Origin: Limnohabitans sp. 2KL-27
GTDB taxonomy: Bacteria > Pseudomonadota > Gammaproteobacteria > Burkholderiales > Burkholderiaceae_C
Assembly: GCF_001269345.1 (NCBI RefSeq)
Contig: NZ_CXOP01000002.1
Location: 310,853-374,852, forward strand
Direction: 5' to 3'
DNA: 64,000 nucleotides
This document shows positions 21,565 through 25,939 of this stretch, one piece after another (position 1 is the first letter of the stretch; every line of letters starts with the position of its first letter). Under the pieces are notes generated by a model. That model made no database searches and had not been told where the DNA came from. It worked only from the letters and a program-made list of their open reading frames with translations. The position numbers and the translations under genes are program-made.

Positions 21565-23043
21565 ATGGGGTTGAATCTCGACGGCCATCACCCCGTCAGC
21601 GCGCCCACATGGGTCCCCAGACTGGCTTTGGGGGTGCTGCTGGTTTTGCCATGGCTCGCGCCTTGGTCCCCTTCGCCGCAACCGAACACGGTGCCCTTGC
21701 TGGTCAGCTGGGCCTGTATCGGCTTGCTCTTGTTGTGGGCCACGCGCATTCAGGCCTTGGACGTGGCCCGGGCATGGGCCATCGCAGCCCTGGTCAGCAG
21801 CGTCATGGGGCTGATCCAGTATTTTGGGACGGCCGAGGTCTTCAGCCCCTGGCTGCACGTCACCGCCTTGGGCGAAGCCAACGCCAACTTGCGCCAACGC
21901 AACCAACTGGCCACCTTGCTGGCCATCGGCATGCTGGCGGTGCTGTGGTGGCAAGTGCATGGGCTCCAAACCCGCCACGCGCTGTGGATGCTGACCCTGC
22001 TGGCCATTGGCAATGCCGCCACCACATCGCGCACCGGCTTGCTGCACATGCTGCTGGTCTGCGGCCTGGTCATGTTTTGGGCCTGGCGCAGTCGTTCACC
22101 CGTGCTCAGGCTGTCCCGTCCTCTGGCGTTTTGGACATTGGCGGTGTACCTGCTGGCCAATTGGGGGCTGCCCTGGTGCTTGAGCGTTTTGACCGGGCAA
22201 GACGTCATCGATGCCCTGACCCGGATGGGCCACAACGATGGCTGTGGCAGCCGACGCGTGTTGTGGGCCAATGTGATCGAACTGATCGGGCAAAAGCCTT
22301 GGACAGGCTGGGGCTGGGGTGAGCTCAAATACGCCCACTACATCACCGCGTACGAGGGCGGTCCAGACAAAAGATTCTGCGAGATTCTGGGCAATGCCCA
22401 CAACTTGCCCTTGCACCTGGCGGTCACGTTGGGCCTGCCGATCACCGCCGCCTTGGGACTGGCTTTGCTCGCGACACTGGCCTGGGCACGGCCTTGGATG
22501 AGTGCATCGCCAACCCATCAATGGGCCTGGTCGGTGCTGGCGGTGATTGGCCTGCACAGCCTGCTGGAGTTTCCGCTGTGGTACGGCCCCTTCCAGATGG
22601 CCGTGCTGTTGTGCGCAGTGTTGTTGCTGATGCCGGCCTCCGGCTGGTCGGCCGGTTTATGGCGAGGCCTGCCACTGATCGGTGGCTTGCTTTTGGCACT
22701 CGTCTGCCTGGTGGGTGCGGACTATGCCCGTGCGCGGCAGATTTACATGCCCGCCTCGCAACGCTGGCCTGTGTGGCGTGACGACCCGCTGGGCGCCGCA
22801 CGCAGCAGCTGGTTTTTCCAGCGATCGGCCACCTTTGCCGAGCTGACCCTGACCCGCGTGACCCCAGAAAACGCCCCATGGGTGCTGGCCACCAGCCTGG
22901 AGATGCTGCATTACTCGCCCGAGCCCCAAGTGGTCAGGCAGTTGATGCTGAGTGCGCACATGCTGGGCAGGCAGGACTTGGTGGCACTGCACTCGGCCAG
23001 GTGGCAAGCGGCCTTCCCGTCCGAACCGATGCCTGGGCATTGA
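21565..23043 (+). CDS. PglL/Wzy-type O-oligosaccharyltransferase
   Basis: A 492-aa polytopic inner-membrane protein with about 11-12 transmembrane helices and a C-terminal soluble tail. Wzy_C/O-ligase features are NLRQRNQLATLLAIG, ATTSRTGLLHM and, in the large periplasmic loop, a WGELKYAHYI segment followed by LGNAHNLPLHLAVTLGLP, where the His-Asn pair is typical of PglL/TfpO transferases. SLLEFPLWYG follows, as in pilin ligases. Its position directly after pilA supports transfer of a lipid-linked glycan to pilin, probably on Ser/Thr. O-antigen ligase activity cannot be excluded. Confidence 0.82.
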   Translation: MGLNLDGHHPVSAPTWVPRLALGVLLVLPWLAPWSPSPQPNTVPLLVSWACIGLLLLWATRIQALDVARAWAIAALVSSVMGLIQYFGTAEVFSPWLHVTALGEANANLRQRNQLATLLAIGMLAVLWWQVHGLQTRHALWMLTLLAIGNAATTSRTGLLHMLLVCGLVMFWAWRSRSPVLRLSRPLAFWTLAVYLLANWGLPWCLSVLTGQDVIDALTRMGHNDGCGSRRVLWANVIELIGQKPWTGWGWGELKYAHYITAYEGGPDKRFCEILGNAHNLPLHLAVTLGLPITAALGLALLATLAWARPWMSASPTHQWAWSVLAVIGLHSLLEFPLWYGPFQMAVLLCAVLLLMPASGWSAGLWRGLPLIGGLLLALVCLVGADYARARQIYMPASQRWPVWRDDPLGAARSSWFFQRSATFAELTLTRVTPENAPWVLATSLEMLHYSPEPQVVRQLMLSAHMLGRQDLVALHSARWQAAFPSEPMPGH

Positions 23044-23073: not shown

Positions 23074-23208
23074 ACTTGGCCGCCACAAAACTCCCCGACT
23101 TACCCCCATGCTTTTCCAGCAAGGTCACGCCGTTGATGGTCATGCCGCGGTCCACCGCTTTACACATGTCGTAGATGGTGAGCAGGGCGACTTGCACGGC
23201 AGTGAGGG
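23074..23208 (-). pseudogene. Detached 3' end of moaC (left island boundary, attL-like)
   Basis: These 135 bp match the 3' end of the intact moaC (25450-25584) at 130 positions without gaps. Read on the minus strand they encode the MoaC C-terminus (LTAVQVALL...KSGSFVAAK) with a stop codon. Four of the five differences are synonymous; the fifth changes Gly to Ala. The fragment lies 30 bp after the pglL stop, where the ancestral moaC end would be expected. It marks the left boundary of the inserted element. Confidence 0.9.
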
Positions 23209-23435
23209 AGTCATACAAATCAACAACTTACAGCACACGGCTTTCCATCGCTTGGCCTGATCCTGTGTGTTTAGTTGGACAAAATTTGGACAAGATTTCT
23301 TGCCCGATGCAAGTGTACGTTACGCGCTAAGTTTGTCTAGGCAGCTTCCAATGCCGATACTGGGTCGAATTTCACCAGCGGCCGACCCCACCGTACCCCC
23401 ACCCCCTAAATCCTGAGCAGGGACTCCCGTCTGCC
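23209..23435. other. Left arm of the island, non-coding, with TTGGACAA repeats
   Basis: No credible gene was found. TTGGACAA occurs at 23275-23282 and 23286-23293, and the same octamer is at 25398-25405 in the right arm, close to the other moaC end. They may be integrase arm-binding sites. The stretch is less GC-rich than the flanking chromosome. Confidence 0.45.
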
Positions 23436-23859
23436 CTATGCACTGTGATTCGCGTAAACGATGCGACCAGCGTGCTTATCTACGAACGTTCTCATGACCA
23501 CTTCCAACACCGGGAGATCAGGGAGTGCCCAGTCCAATGCTTGTAACTCAATTGGCTCAAACCAACCAGCTTCCTCATGGCTTGAGAGCGTGACCTCACG
23601 GTCCTTTGACGTGCACCAGTAGCACTCAAGCTGTATCTAGTACGTGTCGAGCGGTGTGGTGAATGTTCCGAGGGATGGCCCAACTTCTACCCTGATGCCA
23701 AGTTCCTCAAGGATTTCTCTTTGAAGTGCTTGTGGAGCCGATTCACCAGCCTCTACCCTTCCTCCGGGAAATTCCCACTTCAAAGCCGATCCGCCGCCGG
23801 CCGTCCTTTTCGCGGCAAAGATTTGATTACCATGCCATATGACTGCGGCGACAACCCAT
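23436..23859 (-). pseudogene. NUDIX hydrolase (MutT/NudG-like), inactivated
   Basis: Reading the minus strand from near 23859 gives a NUDIX hydrolase of about 140 residues: WVVAAVIWHGNQIFAAKR, then a complete NUDIX box of the form G-x5-E-x7-REILEELGI, and a C-terminal half with EEAGWFEPIEL and PVLEVVMRTFVDKH, ending at TAG 23438. An in-frame TAG interrupts the frame at the position following LDTY (about 23639). The putative ATG at 23859 is out of frame by one base with the rest. Intact relatives hydrolyse oxidised or modified (d)NTPs. Two lesions support a pseudogene inside the island. Confidence 0.78.
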
Positions 23860-24208
23860 AGGTCTTCCTGAAAAGTCTTCCCTTTACGCTTTGAGGCACT
23901 CTGGAATAACAGATTTGGTAATTGGTGGATTGGACCTCCTGACCAACGTTCTTATTTTTTGAACGTCCGTTGCCATGATTGAACGTCACTACGGACATTT
24001 GAGACAAGAACATGCTGCATCGGCACTTGAAAAGCTAAAGTTGTGAGCTTGTGATGAGCCATTGAAATTTATCAATGTCTATACTTTCTTGCATTACATG
24101 GTCTTTATTGCCTAAGCGGTTAAAAAGATCGTTTCGGTTAACACCGGCTTCAAGCATCGTCTGCAAGTGCCACTGAATTTGTTCACAACAACAGCCTAAT
24201 TGAATGAT
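23860..24208. other. AT-rich intergenic stretch of the island
   Basis: About 350 bp without a gene that can be supported. It is markedly richer in A+T than the flanking chromosome. An AGGAGG appears on the minus strand near 23935 with no usable start codon in the NUDIX frame. The region probably holds the promoter of the DUF2939 gene. Confidence 0.5.
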
Positions 24209-24751
24209 ATGAAAAAAATAGTCTCATTTAGCTTTGCAGCATTAATTGCACTTGCCCTTGCAGTCGGAGCATATTGGTACTACTCACCATACCTCGTAAT
24301 TAACAACATGGCTACCGCAGCCAAGATGAAAGATGCAGACAGGTTTAACGAAGGCGTTGATTACCCTCGTCTGCGAGAGAGTTTGAAGGGACAAATTTCT
24401 GCACAAATGGCAATGACTGTTGGCAAGCAATCTAGCACCCCGTTCGGGGCACTTGGTGCAATGCTCGGCATGGCTATGGTCAACCAGATAGTTGACTCAT
24501 TTGTTCGACCAGAAATGGTCATGGAGATGATGAAAGACGGAAAGGTCAAGACCACCGGGTCCTCCTCTTCTGACTCTTCAGAGACAAAAGAAGTGAATTG
24601 GGTCATCGAACGTAAAGGAGTTGATCGCGTAATTGCGATGGCTCAAGACAACAGAAAATCTGACTCAAAAGCAGCGGTTGGATTCGTTTTTGAACGGTCA
24701 GGATTCGCGACTTGGAAGGTGACTGAACTTCGCATGGTATTCCCCAATTAA
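24209..24751 (+). CDS. DUF2939 protein, membrane-anchored or secreted
   Basis: A 180-aa protein from ATG 24209 (a TTG lies 9 nt upstream). The N-terminus MKKIVSFSFAALIALALAVG is a signal anchor. The YYSPYLVINNMATAAKMKDADRFNEGVDYPRLRESLKGQ segment matches the DUF2939 pattern of a short helix-loop followed by a VDYPxLRESLK motif. A Ser/Asp-rich stretch (GSSSSDSSE) follows, and the C-terminus is beta-rich (VGFVFERSGFATWKV). Function is unknown. Its A+T content and codon use differ from chromosomal neighbours, consistent with acquisition on the island; it is the only apparently intact gene there. Confidence 0.82.
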   Translation: MKKIVSFSFAALIALALAVGAYWYYSPYLVINNMATAAKMKDADRFNEGVDYPRLRESLKGQISAQMAMTVGKQSSTPFGALGAMLGMAMVNQIVDSFVRPEMVMEMMKDGKVKTTGSSSSDSSETKEVNWVIERKGVDRVIAMAQDNRKSDSKAAVGFVFERSGFATWKVTELRMVFPN

Positions 24752-24815
24752 TAGCCGGGGGGTACAACTTGTCAAACTTCTCTTATGAATTCAACCCCAC
24801 AGGCATCGTCCAGCC

Positions 24816-25372
24816 CTAGGAATTGAAGAGCTTAAGCAATGACTTGTTCAGCGACAAAAAGAGGTCTAGGTGTTGATTGGTCAGCACCCGCGACCGTGCT
24901 TGCGGACTTTGTGGCTTACGGACCATCTGAACAGGGTTGGGCGCATTTATTCCCCATTCACGCCGAGCGTGATTGATGATGGCTGACAAATACGCCAGTT
25001 CCCGGATGACTGTTCCCGCACTGACCTCTTTAAGTCGCTCGTCTCGATATGCCGCAATACGGGCTACGCTCAGGTTCGCCATGCTCCACCGTGCAATTGG
25101 TTTGCGCATGATGGCTTTGAGCCGGATAGTGTCCTCCGTCGCACCCTTCATGGTCGGCGTAACCTCGGCCAAATACCGTGCTATCAGATCGCCCAAGGTA
25201 TTCCGCTGGGCCTCACTGACAGTAACGAACTGCCCCTTGTCGATTTCTGACTCAAGCCCCCGCGCCCACTTCTCTGCGGCGGCCTTGGTTTCAAAAGTCT
25301 TGGTTTGATCGGGGTAACCGTTGCGCAGGATACGCGCCTGCCACTTGCCGCCACGCTGCCAAAAGAAGCCAT
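24816..25372 (-). pseudogene. Tyrosine recombinase (integrase), frameshifted and truncated
   Basis: The minus strand encodes an integrase N-terminus. ATG 25372 reads MASF, but the conserved continuation WQRGGKWQARILRNGYPDQ is in the next frame from 25361, so one base appears lost in the T-run at 25361-25364. That frame continues through TKTFETKAAAEKWARGLE, the core-binding domain LGDLIARYLAEVTPTMKGA, and NHARREWGINAPNPVQMV, and stops at 24816 shortly after SRVLTNQHLDLFL. The whole catalytic domain with R-H-R-Y residues is missing. It lies just inside the right boundary at moaC, as expected for an element that integrated there. Confidence 0.85.
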
Positions 25373-25447
25373 TTCCTATTCCTCAGATGGACAGGACTTG
25401 GACAAACGACGGTTTTCCGTGCTCCTAAGCCGTTGATTTGTGAGCGC

Positions 25448-25939
25448 CTACTTGCCCGCCACGAAGCTCCCCGACTTACCCCCATGCTTTTCCAGCAAGG
25501 TCACGCCGTTGATGGTCATGCCGCGGTCCACCGCTTTGCACATGTCGTAGATGGTGAGCAGGGCGACTTGCACGGCGGTGAGGGCTTCCATCTCGACACC
25601 CGTTTGGCCGATGGTTTCGGCGGTAGCGGTGCAGACCACGGTGGATTCGGCGGGCAACACCTCAAACTCGACCGCCACCCGGGTCAGGCCGATCGGGTGG
25701 CACAGCGGAATCAGGTCACTGGTCTTTTTGGCCCCTTGAATGCCCGCGATTCGGGCAATGCCCAACACATCGCCTTTTTTGGCGGTGCCCGACGCGATCA
25801 GCGCCAGCGTGGCGGGCAGCATCTCGATGCGGCCGGTAGCGACCGCGATGCGGCGCGTGCTGGATTTACCGCCCACATCCACCATGTGGGCTTGGCCCTG
25901 GGCATCAAAATGGGTCAAGACATCGGTAGACTGGGTCAT
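25448..25939 (-). CDS. moaC: Cyclic pyranopterin monophosphate synthase MoaC
   Basis: The 163-aa second enzyme of molybdenum cofactor synthesis, converting the MoaA product into cyclic pyranopterin monophosphate. Visible motifs are [17 protein letters not shown], the active-site region [34 protein letters not shown] and the C-terminal Lys-containing GGKSGSF. It is full length and intact. The last 45 residues lie in the island-borne repeat, so the gene appears to be a chimera of the host 5' part and an element-supplied 3' end. It is divergent from the M48 protease. Confidence 0.98.

Follow-up and report, generated by a model that had tools for sequence, protein, structure and literature searches.

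The stretch of DNA analysed here (the window) comprises 64,000 nucleotides of contig NZ_CXOP01000002.1 of Limnohabitans sp. 2KL-27, a strain whose 2.97-Mb genome is assembled in two contigs, and carries the gene moaC together with a second, displaced copy of the moaC 3' end. The two copies form a gap-free direct repeat of 135 nt with 130 identities (23074-23208 and 25450-25584, spacing 2376), exactly as described in an earlier note made from the sequence alone, and a search of the host genome recovered the second copy at 96% identity (E 2.2e-58). The note had recognised in the proximal copy the present C-terminus of MoaC and in the distal copy a former gene end, still with its stop codon, beside pglL; moaC is indeed intact and the distal copy is in frame, the stop codons being TAG and TGA, respectively (Table 1). 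Four of the five differences between the copies are synonymous, as the note had counted, and the fifth exchanges Gly and Ala. Between the copies lie 2241 bp with a GC content of 49.8%; among 229 other 2241-bp segments sampled from the window, none had 51% or less (minimum 57.4%). We consider it very probable that this insert is a dead member of a family of small mobile elements whose lambda-type tyrosine integrase has its chromosomal attachment site in the 3' end of moaC.

Table 1. Features of the moaC island and its borders (positions in the window)
Feature	Position	Strand	Evidence or remark
pglL (O-antigen ligase family), next to and convergent with the displaced moaC end	21565..23043	plus	PF04932, PF11846, PF15864
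Distal (displaced) copy of the moaC 3' end	23074..23208	minus	in frame, TGA stop; 28 nt from pglL stop
Distal arm-type pair TGTCCAAATTTTGTCCA	23276..23292	minus	candidate
NUDIX pseudogene	23481..23879	minus	PF00293 E 2.7e-16; one internal stop
C-terminal tail of a second tyrosine recombinase, inverted	23882..24043	plus	54 aa, one internal stop; other integrase family
DUF2939 gene, intact	24209..24751	plus	PF11159 E 4.2e-23
moaC-type integrase remnant	24816..25372	minus	Int_N PF24624 E 1.5e-7; 86% to intact G419 integrase
Proximal arm-type pair TGTCCAAGTCCTGTCCA	25388..25404	minus	candidate
moaC, intact	25448..25939	minus	163 aa; PF01967 E 4.6e-57; last 45 codons within proximal repeat
Proximal copy of the moaC 3' end, present functional C-terminus	25450..25584	minus	sequence comparison
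GACATGTG, candidate strand-exchange segment before the Lys135 codon	25539..25546; distal counterpart 23163-23170	minus	putative

Read outward from moaC, the insert begins with two paired short repeats and the N-terminal portion of an integrase; a DUF2939 gene and the tail of a different integrase come next, and the NUDIX pseudogene is followed by another such repeat pair beside the distal moaC end. The first integrase remnant has kept its Int_N region and lost its catalytic domain, the sequence stopping before the catalytic residues, and its ATG (25372) is out of frame with the body. The tail of the second integrase, which has no Pfam match at 0.01, is 65-67% identical to open reading frames of 392-424 aa in two other genomes (G413 and G469; G and L numbers are our labels for genomes and loci). 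That this inverted tail is a piece of the moaC-type integrase was ruled out, as it matches the other family and none of the intact moaC-type integrases. The NUDIX pseudogene and the DUF2939 gene had been correctly identified in the earlier note, but the single broken integrase listed there proved to be two remnants of different families on opposite strands. Among the cargo recognised in the window island, just the DUF2939 gene is intact, and no primase or replication gene was recognised there. The DUF2939 product matches the PADLOC defence candidate PDC-S55 (PDLC05037, E 6.3e-38), no match was found in the other 89 genus genomes searched, and we found no paper in the PubMed Central (PMC) literature linking DUF2939 with phage. 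The window copy is a dead fossil element: having lost the catalytic half of its integrase, it cannot move by itself.

The integrase remnant, used as query, matched 17 of 90 genomes of the genus, and a MoaC C-terminus query recovered moaC in 84 of the 90, for each of which one moaC neighbourhood was examined (the window serving for its own genome). In 10 of the 17, the own genome included, the match lies directly behind moaC, at most 150 nt from its stop (G000, G401, G412, G419, G430, G451, G454, G464, G469 and G473), and in eight of them moaC is followed farther downstream by another moaC end (decayed in G430); the other seven, with identities of 43% or less, lie elsewhere, away from moaC. An intact integrase accompanies the regenerated moaC in G419, G401, G412, G464, G469 and others. 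In 399 genomes of the family, an intact integrase matched 31 at E <=1e-60, and 30 loci were read: the 10 with at least 50.5% tblastn identity adjoin moaC (G349, G397, G216, G254, G308, G049, G350, G260, G348 and the own genome), and the 20 with no more than 46.3% all lie away from it, five of these 20 having shown 50-51% in the shorter alignments of the initial search. At a cut-off of 1e-70, 31 of 399 genomes of the order matched, giving 29 loci other than the own one; G611 (58%) and G728 (49%) adjoin moaC and the remaining 27 do not. Among 32 loci on named contigs, 15 adjoin moaC, one of them in a Methylophilaceae metagenome-assembled genome (MAG), and 17 do not. Because seven of the 15 had already been counted in the genus, integrases beside moaC, which the earlier note had suggested looking for, are present in 29 genomes or contigs (10 from the genus, nine from the family, two from the order and eight named contigs). 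The 22 moaC-adjacent integrases of at least 230 residues split exactly from 56 others (78 in total), with a Shimodaira-Hasegawa-like approximate likelihood ratio (SH-aLRT) support of 95.3 in the fast mode of IQ-TREE, and residues R199, K224, H279, R282, H305 and Y314 are invariant across 15 aligned integrases, 10 of them of the moaC type.

Direct repeats of the target-gene end at both borders, by which gene-restoring islands are recognised, occur in the window and in 14 other pairs, so that 15 elements with a usable distal copy could be compared. The shared block measures 113-203 nt in 14 of them and 106 nt in G454; its downstream limit is at or close to the moaC stop, and its upstream limit, in 13 of the 15, about 80-108 nt ahead of the GGKSG codons (farther away in G412 and G442). 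moaC is regenerated in frame with a displaced fragment at the far border, the exception being the MAG locus L194 (9481-9920), where the moaC frame is apparently broken inside the repeat region and an integrase remnant is also present; this could be an assembly error or a failed restoration. Codon differences between proximal and distal copies amount to 75 synonymous and 13 nonsynonymous over 14 of 18 pairs, nonsynonymous changes in the last ~10 codons being undercounted because local alignment clips divergent tails. This count omits L194 with its broken frame (0 and 0) and three pairs with a decayed distal copy, G430, G454 and G349 (18 and 20 in sum). The argument for protein-level selection, which the earlier note had built on the differences in the window, therefore holds over the 14 pairs. 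Separately, we observed the MoaC tails GGKSGSWTA and GGKSGSWSA (L083, L085 and L229) in the element-bearing or scarred genomes G419, G454 and G460, as well as in G478, the contig of which ends just behind moaC; such tails are possibly a lasting mark of past integrations.

The octamer GACATGTG is the only difference-free stretch of at least 7 nt in the 15 pairs (positions covered by at least 12 pairs). It adjoins the codon for Lys135, which aligns with residue 131 of Escherichia coli MoaC, a lysine that we take to be catalytic, although we found no paper in PMC on MoaC K131 and cPMP. The codons of the octamer vary little in element-free genomes too, so its invariance is a constraint and not proof of a crossover, and by eye we saw no convincing inverted half-sites, just the shared identical octamer. 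We also compared the two ends of eight elements, each with its five nearest element-free genomes. Downstream of the octamer (the 3' zone), the element-free genomes agreed with the distal copy at 216 and with the proximal copy at 120 comparisons, and upstream of it (the 5' zone) with the proximal copy at 90 and the distal copy at 71, a pooled polarity that matches the prediction for an exchange at the octamer. Of the eight, the window fits (3' zone, distal 11 versus proximal 2 at three differing sites; 5' zone, proximal 3 versus 0), as do G419, G442 and G454 (86 versus 12).

Just inside both ends of the elements lies a pair of short repeats with 11-bp phasing, reading TTGTCC[A/C]A..CTGTCC[A/C]A at the proximal end, upstream of the integrase start and in many cases exactly 43 nt past the moaC stop, and TTGTCC[A/C]AATTTTGTCC[A/C]ACT at the distal end, ahead of the distal moaC end. 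By eye, none of the 15 elements compared lacks the pair at either end. A strict form of it, TGTCC[AC]N5TGTCC[AC], is matched at 11 proximal and 13 distal ends; variant pairs occur in G728 (TGCTCCAA at both ends) and G397 (a GGCCC variant at both), and the proximal pair is degenerate in G454 and G459. Both strands of the 84 genus loci (1.81 Mb) yielded 20 strict matches, always downstream of moaC and in sense orientation, and none came from the 68,675 nt upstream of moaC. The 2.97-Mb host genome contains the strict pattern twice, at the two island ends, against one match of a reversed control. Occurrence in the genus is sporadic, with an integrase in 10 of the 84 genomes and a strict proximal pair in 11 (81 of the 84 have at least 120 nt behind moaC). 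A blind search of the 399 family genomes with the distal pattern gave four matches, all in genomes with a moaC integrase, and none with the control; the match in G308, on another contig, runs straight into a moaC 3' end and is the distal border that had previously been missing. These pairs look like arm-type sites of the integrase. They also identify decayed copies: G460 and G408 are scars, as they keep the proximal pair and a degenerate integrase start, and G442 and G459 are decayed elements, as they keep the end repeats and the integrase start. A looser proximal pair 43 nt after the moaC stop, with no integrase call, was seen in G434 and G414, which are probably older scars. Related integrases at loci away from moaC (L134, L130, L135, L163 and others) often have, 60 nt upstream of their start, 11-bp-phased pairs such as TTGGGACA or TTGGCACA, a like motif turned the other way round.

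In each of the 12 elements that match the strict pattern at both ends, the two ends have the same variable base (permutation, 1 in 792), and this base covaries with residue 16 of the integrase, which is Arg in 12 of 12 C-type and in none of 10 A-type integrases among the 22 of the tree (Fisher 1.5e-6). For six of these, the motifs are variant or degenerate and the type was assigned by judgement; without L117, L177, L141 and L178 the figures become nine of nine versus none of nine (p 4e-5), and with L110 and L085 removed as well, seven of seven versus none of nine (p 9e-5). As the rule was spotted first and tested afterwards, with just the second element at L195 seen later, these p-values are not blind. 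Residue 16 gave the sole perfect association among 1289 residue tests, followed by residues 9 and 10. Both characters change eight times on the tree, and relatedness is no explanation for the covariation, because shuffled arm labels change about as often (7.5 on average). Outside the tree the rule holds in G442, G459, G451, G473, G348, WB6, RE17, the window remnant (Leu, A-type) and the second L195 element; the exception is G430, a decayed C-type element with Lys. The three outgroup loci scored (L042, L143 and L158) combine the base T with Gln. In a structure model of the integrase (predicted local distance difference test score 86.8, predicted template-modelling score 0.59), strands at residues 2-7, 10-15 and 23-27 are followed by a helix at 30-45; by these limits residues 9, 10 and 16 would lie at the ends of the second strand. 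Lambda-type integrases are defined by a separate N-terminal arm-binding domain and arm-type sites at both ends; candidates for both are found here in the sequence and, for the domain, in this model, together with the covariation at residue 16. We see an even chance that residue 16, at the edge of the N-terminal sheet, acts as a one-residue code for base N of TTGTCC[N]A (Arg for C, non-Arg for A and perhaps Gln for T), with residue and base having switched together about eight times, and that this code prevents cross-recognition between elements sharing the site and permits tandems.

In 11 paired elements with an intact integrase the spacing is 5.7-9.8 kb, and replication-type domains (VapE-like helicase, Prim-Pol, PriCT, AAA_25, D5_N and DUF5906) occur in about 10 relatives, the primase-helicase or AAA replication domains being found in G419, G401, G412, G442, G469, G397, G350, G611, L195 and Loclat. 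Other cargo includes RadC in G419, an acyltransferase in G454, an RTX protein in G469 and Sel1 proteins in G216 and L195, and a Mob_Pre relaxase was seen in G464 only. No structural gene, AlpA/Stl regulator or packaging gene was recognised among the proteins scanned, and the large proteins of G216, G049 and YR2 had no Pfam match. A PADLOC scan of 10 proteins gave a strong match solely for the window DUF2939 protein, with a weak one of the G464 HNH protein to PtuB/PDC-M01B (best 7.5e-8) and a marginal one for the G216 Sel1 protein. Small proteins with an HGG..TGPKT motif seen by eye (for example at L084:12848-13321) cluster in seven elements (G349, G397, G401, G454, G469, L195 and YR2); two copies scanned had no Pfam match. 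At L195 (831-11566) two elements stand in tandem, the second integrase, of the other arm type (C instead of A), starting behind the second moaC end of the first element, and in G397 (L260) further partial moaC ends lie about 10.6 and 12.4 kb behind moaC. In G444 (L100:5932-7440) a caspase-domain protein (PF00656) is encoded between moaC and a decayed second moaC end.

From the repeats, reading frames, end pairs, integrase family, clade and covariation, all read from the sequences, we infer the following course, in which the circular intermediate, the arm binding and the exact crossover are our proposal. The circular element would carry the last ~35-65 codons of moaC as part of its attachment site (attP). 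The N-terminal domains of the integrase would bind the paired TTGTCC[A/C]A repeats inside both ends and bring them to the core, and an exchange of strands, most probably in or close to GACATGTG next to the invariant-lysine codon, would join the body of the host moaC to the 3' end brought by the element, pushing the host's own moaC end to the far side, next to pglL. MoaC would stay whole because the element's 3' end is joined to the host gene body. The central claim of the earlier note, an island integrated in moaC that restores the gene's 3' end, is supported by the in-frame replacement ends, the displaced fragments and, in relatives with both ends recovered, the matched end sequences.

Several results weigh against this proposal. 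No circular form or attP was found in viral, phage and plasmid collections: viral contigs yielded one relative at 24% without a match to the end motif, phage matches were all below 60%, and so were the plasmid matches except for one record in the 60-80% band, matched, among the queries used, by the C-terminal third only. Of the 10 family genomes in which the integrase is known, the strict distal pattern missed six, and in G451 and G473 the integrase is present and a distal moaC copy was not detected. The polarity around the octamer holds only when pooled, G412 and G469 (3' zone) and G401 and G464 (5' zone) going the opposite way. The moaC clade received a FastTree support of only 0.658, and the order-level integrases L142 and L143, at 51-53%, are not at moaC, so that identity alone does not predict the site beyond the family. 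The uninterrupted pglL-moaC synteny that the earlier note had suggested searching for in relatives was not encountered: no clean, never-occupied moaC-pglL site was found in the genus, pglL lying in the fetched stretch of 23 of the 84 loci. G460, with a gap of 178 bp and moaC cut by the contig end, was considered as an empty junction and rejected, since like G408 it is a scar, with the proximal pair and an integrase start.

Two other routes could yield a repeated gene end. The moaC end might have been duplicated in tandem or segmentally, with later insertions between the copies and an integrase present by coincidence, and the earlier note had held that duplicated ends in relatives without an integrase would tell against an island. 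In form such ends exist, in G442 and G459 and weakly in G087, G435 and G444, none of which has an integrase call; a 29%-identity second-end match in G403 is probably due to chance. However, two of the five, G442 and G459, retain end repeats and the integrase start of decayed elements, and a duplication would not account for end repeats on either side of all 15 elements, an integrase fixed behind moaC in 29 genomes or contigs, the 75:13 excess of synonymous differences over 14 pairs, the low GC content of the insert or the motif search that led to the missing distal end of G308. We regard this explanation as extremely improbable, and a chance repeat or simple duplication was rejected on the same evidence. 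Alternatively, a plasmid or phage bearing a moaC fragment might have entered by a single homologous crossover in the shared sequence, the integrase being uninvolved. The geometry would then be identical, and the shared block is indeed long (113-203 nt in 14 of 15), but the constant orientation, an upstream limit of that block within ~9 codons in 13 of the 15 pairs, the arm-like pairs at fixed distances and the dedicated integrase clade leave such an origin highly improbable, if slightly less so than a duplication.

A third proposal concerns how the elements travel. They might be phage satellites of the P4 or phage-inducible chromosomal island (PICI) kind, with a primase-helicase of their own and capsids borrowed from a helper, for which moaC is merely the site. 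The replication domains in 10 relatives, the spacing of 5.7-9.8 kb and the lack of recognisable structural genes among the scanned proteins speak for it. Against it, neither an AlpA/Stl regulator nor a packaging gene was recognised in those proteins, no helper is known, the relaxase of G464 suggests a mobilizable element instead, and the large proteins of G216, G049 and YR2 are without Pfam match. We consider a satellite lifestyle a real possibility, although we lean slightly away from it; it is compatible with integrase-mediated insertion at moaC, as it concerns transfer and not integration.

Integration at moaC by these integrases represents a new target and a new integrase clade, both well supported, within a known kind of mobile element. 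The attachment site is a dedicated one within a protein gene, at codons for the best-conserved part of a cofactor enzyme, and is used in three families of the order (f1, f26 and f47); each integration exchanges the C-terminal ~30-45 codons of MoaC for an element-borne copy. The end motif provides a cheap marker for such elements and their scars, and the matched variation of ends and residue 16 offers natural variants for testing how arm-binding domains choose DNA. As far as we have searched, in the PMC literature, the use of moaC as a target, the clade of integrases that do so and the arm-site code are new; integration into coding genes with restoration of the target is itself well known. The earlier note knew of no described moaC attachment site, and within PMC, where this was checked, we likewise found no report of one, nor did the portions seen of PMC7019866 and PMC5406005 contain any. 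Its view that integration in coding genes is much less common than in tRNA genes did not stand, as a TIGER survey of 1.76 million islands placed 43.4% in coding sequences and 33.8% in tRNA or tmRNA genes (PMC12424338).

Islands that restore their target genes are described in the parts seen of PMC10111431 and PMC12884075, and in islands of tRNA genes a regenerated target and a displaced fragment mark the ends (PMC4383910, as far as seen). The moaC elements share these marks with such Islander-type islands, and 10 of 30 related non-moaC integrases scanned lie at most 250 nt from a tRNA gene (Val, Met, Asn, Pro, Ala or Arg); they differ in that the target is protein-coding and what is replaced is coding sequence constrained at the protein level. 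The prophages and islands in icd likewise use an internal site of a housekeeping gene, which a replacement sequence in attP keeps functional, but the target gene and, presumably, the integrase are others, and the moaC elements are far smaller, with no phage structural genes recognised. Islands of the guaA type (GIsul2, ICERspD18B) reportedly also bear an integrase and are tied to the housekeeping gene guaA; by their description, they differ in that target and in their resistance cargo. Phage satellites (PICI, P4-like) resemble the moaC elements in small size, integrase and the primase-helicase-type genes of about 10 relatives, whereas no regulator or packaging module was recognised in the scanned proteins of the latter, and no helper. 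The closest parallel in structure is lambda Int, the best solved match to the whole integrase model (1z1b, E 7e-12), with which the moaC integrases share, in the model, an N-terminal three-stranded sheet and helix, as well as short repeat pairs at both element ends. Identity in the structural alignment is 23%, and where lambda has a set of arm sites, the moaC elements have one pair per end.

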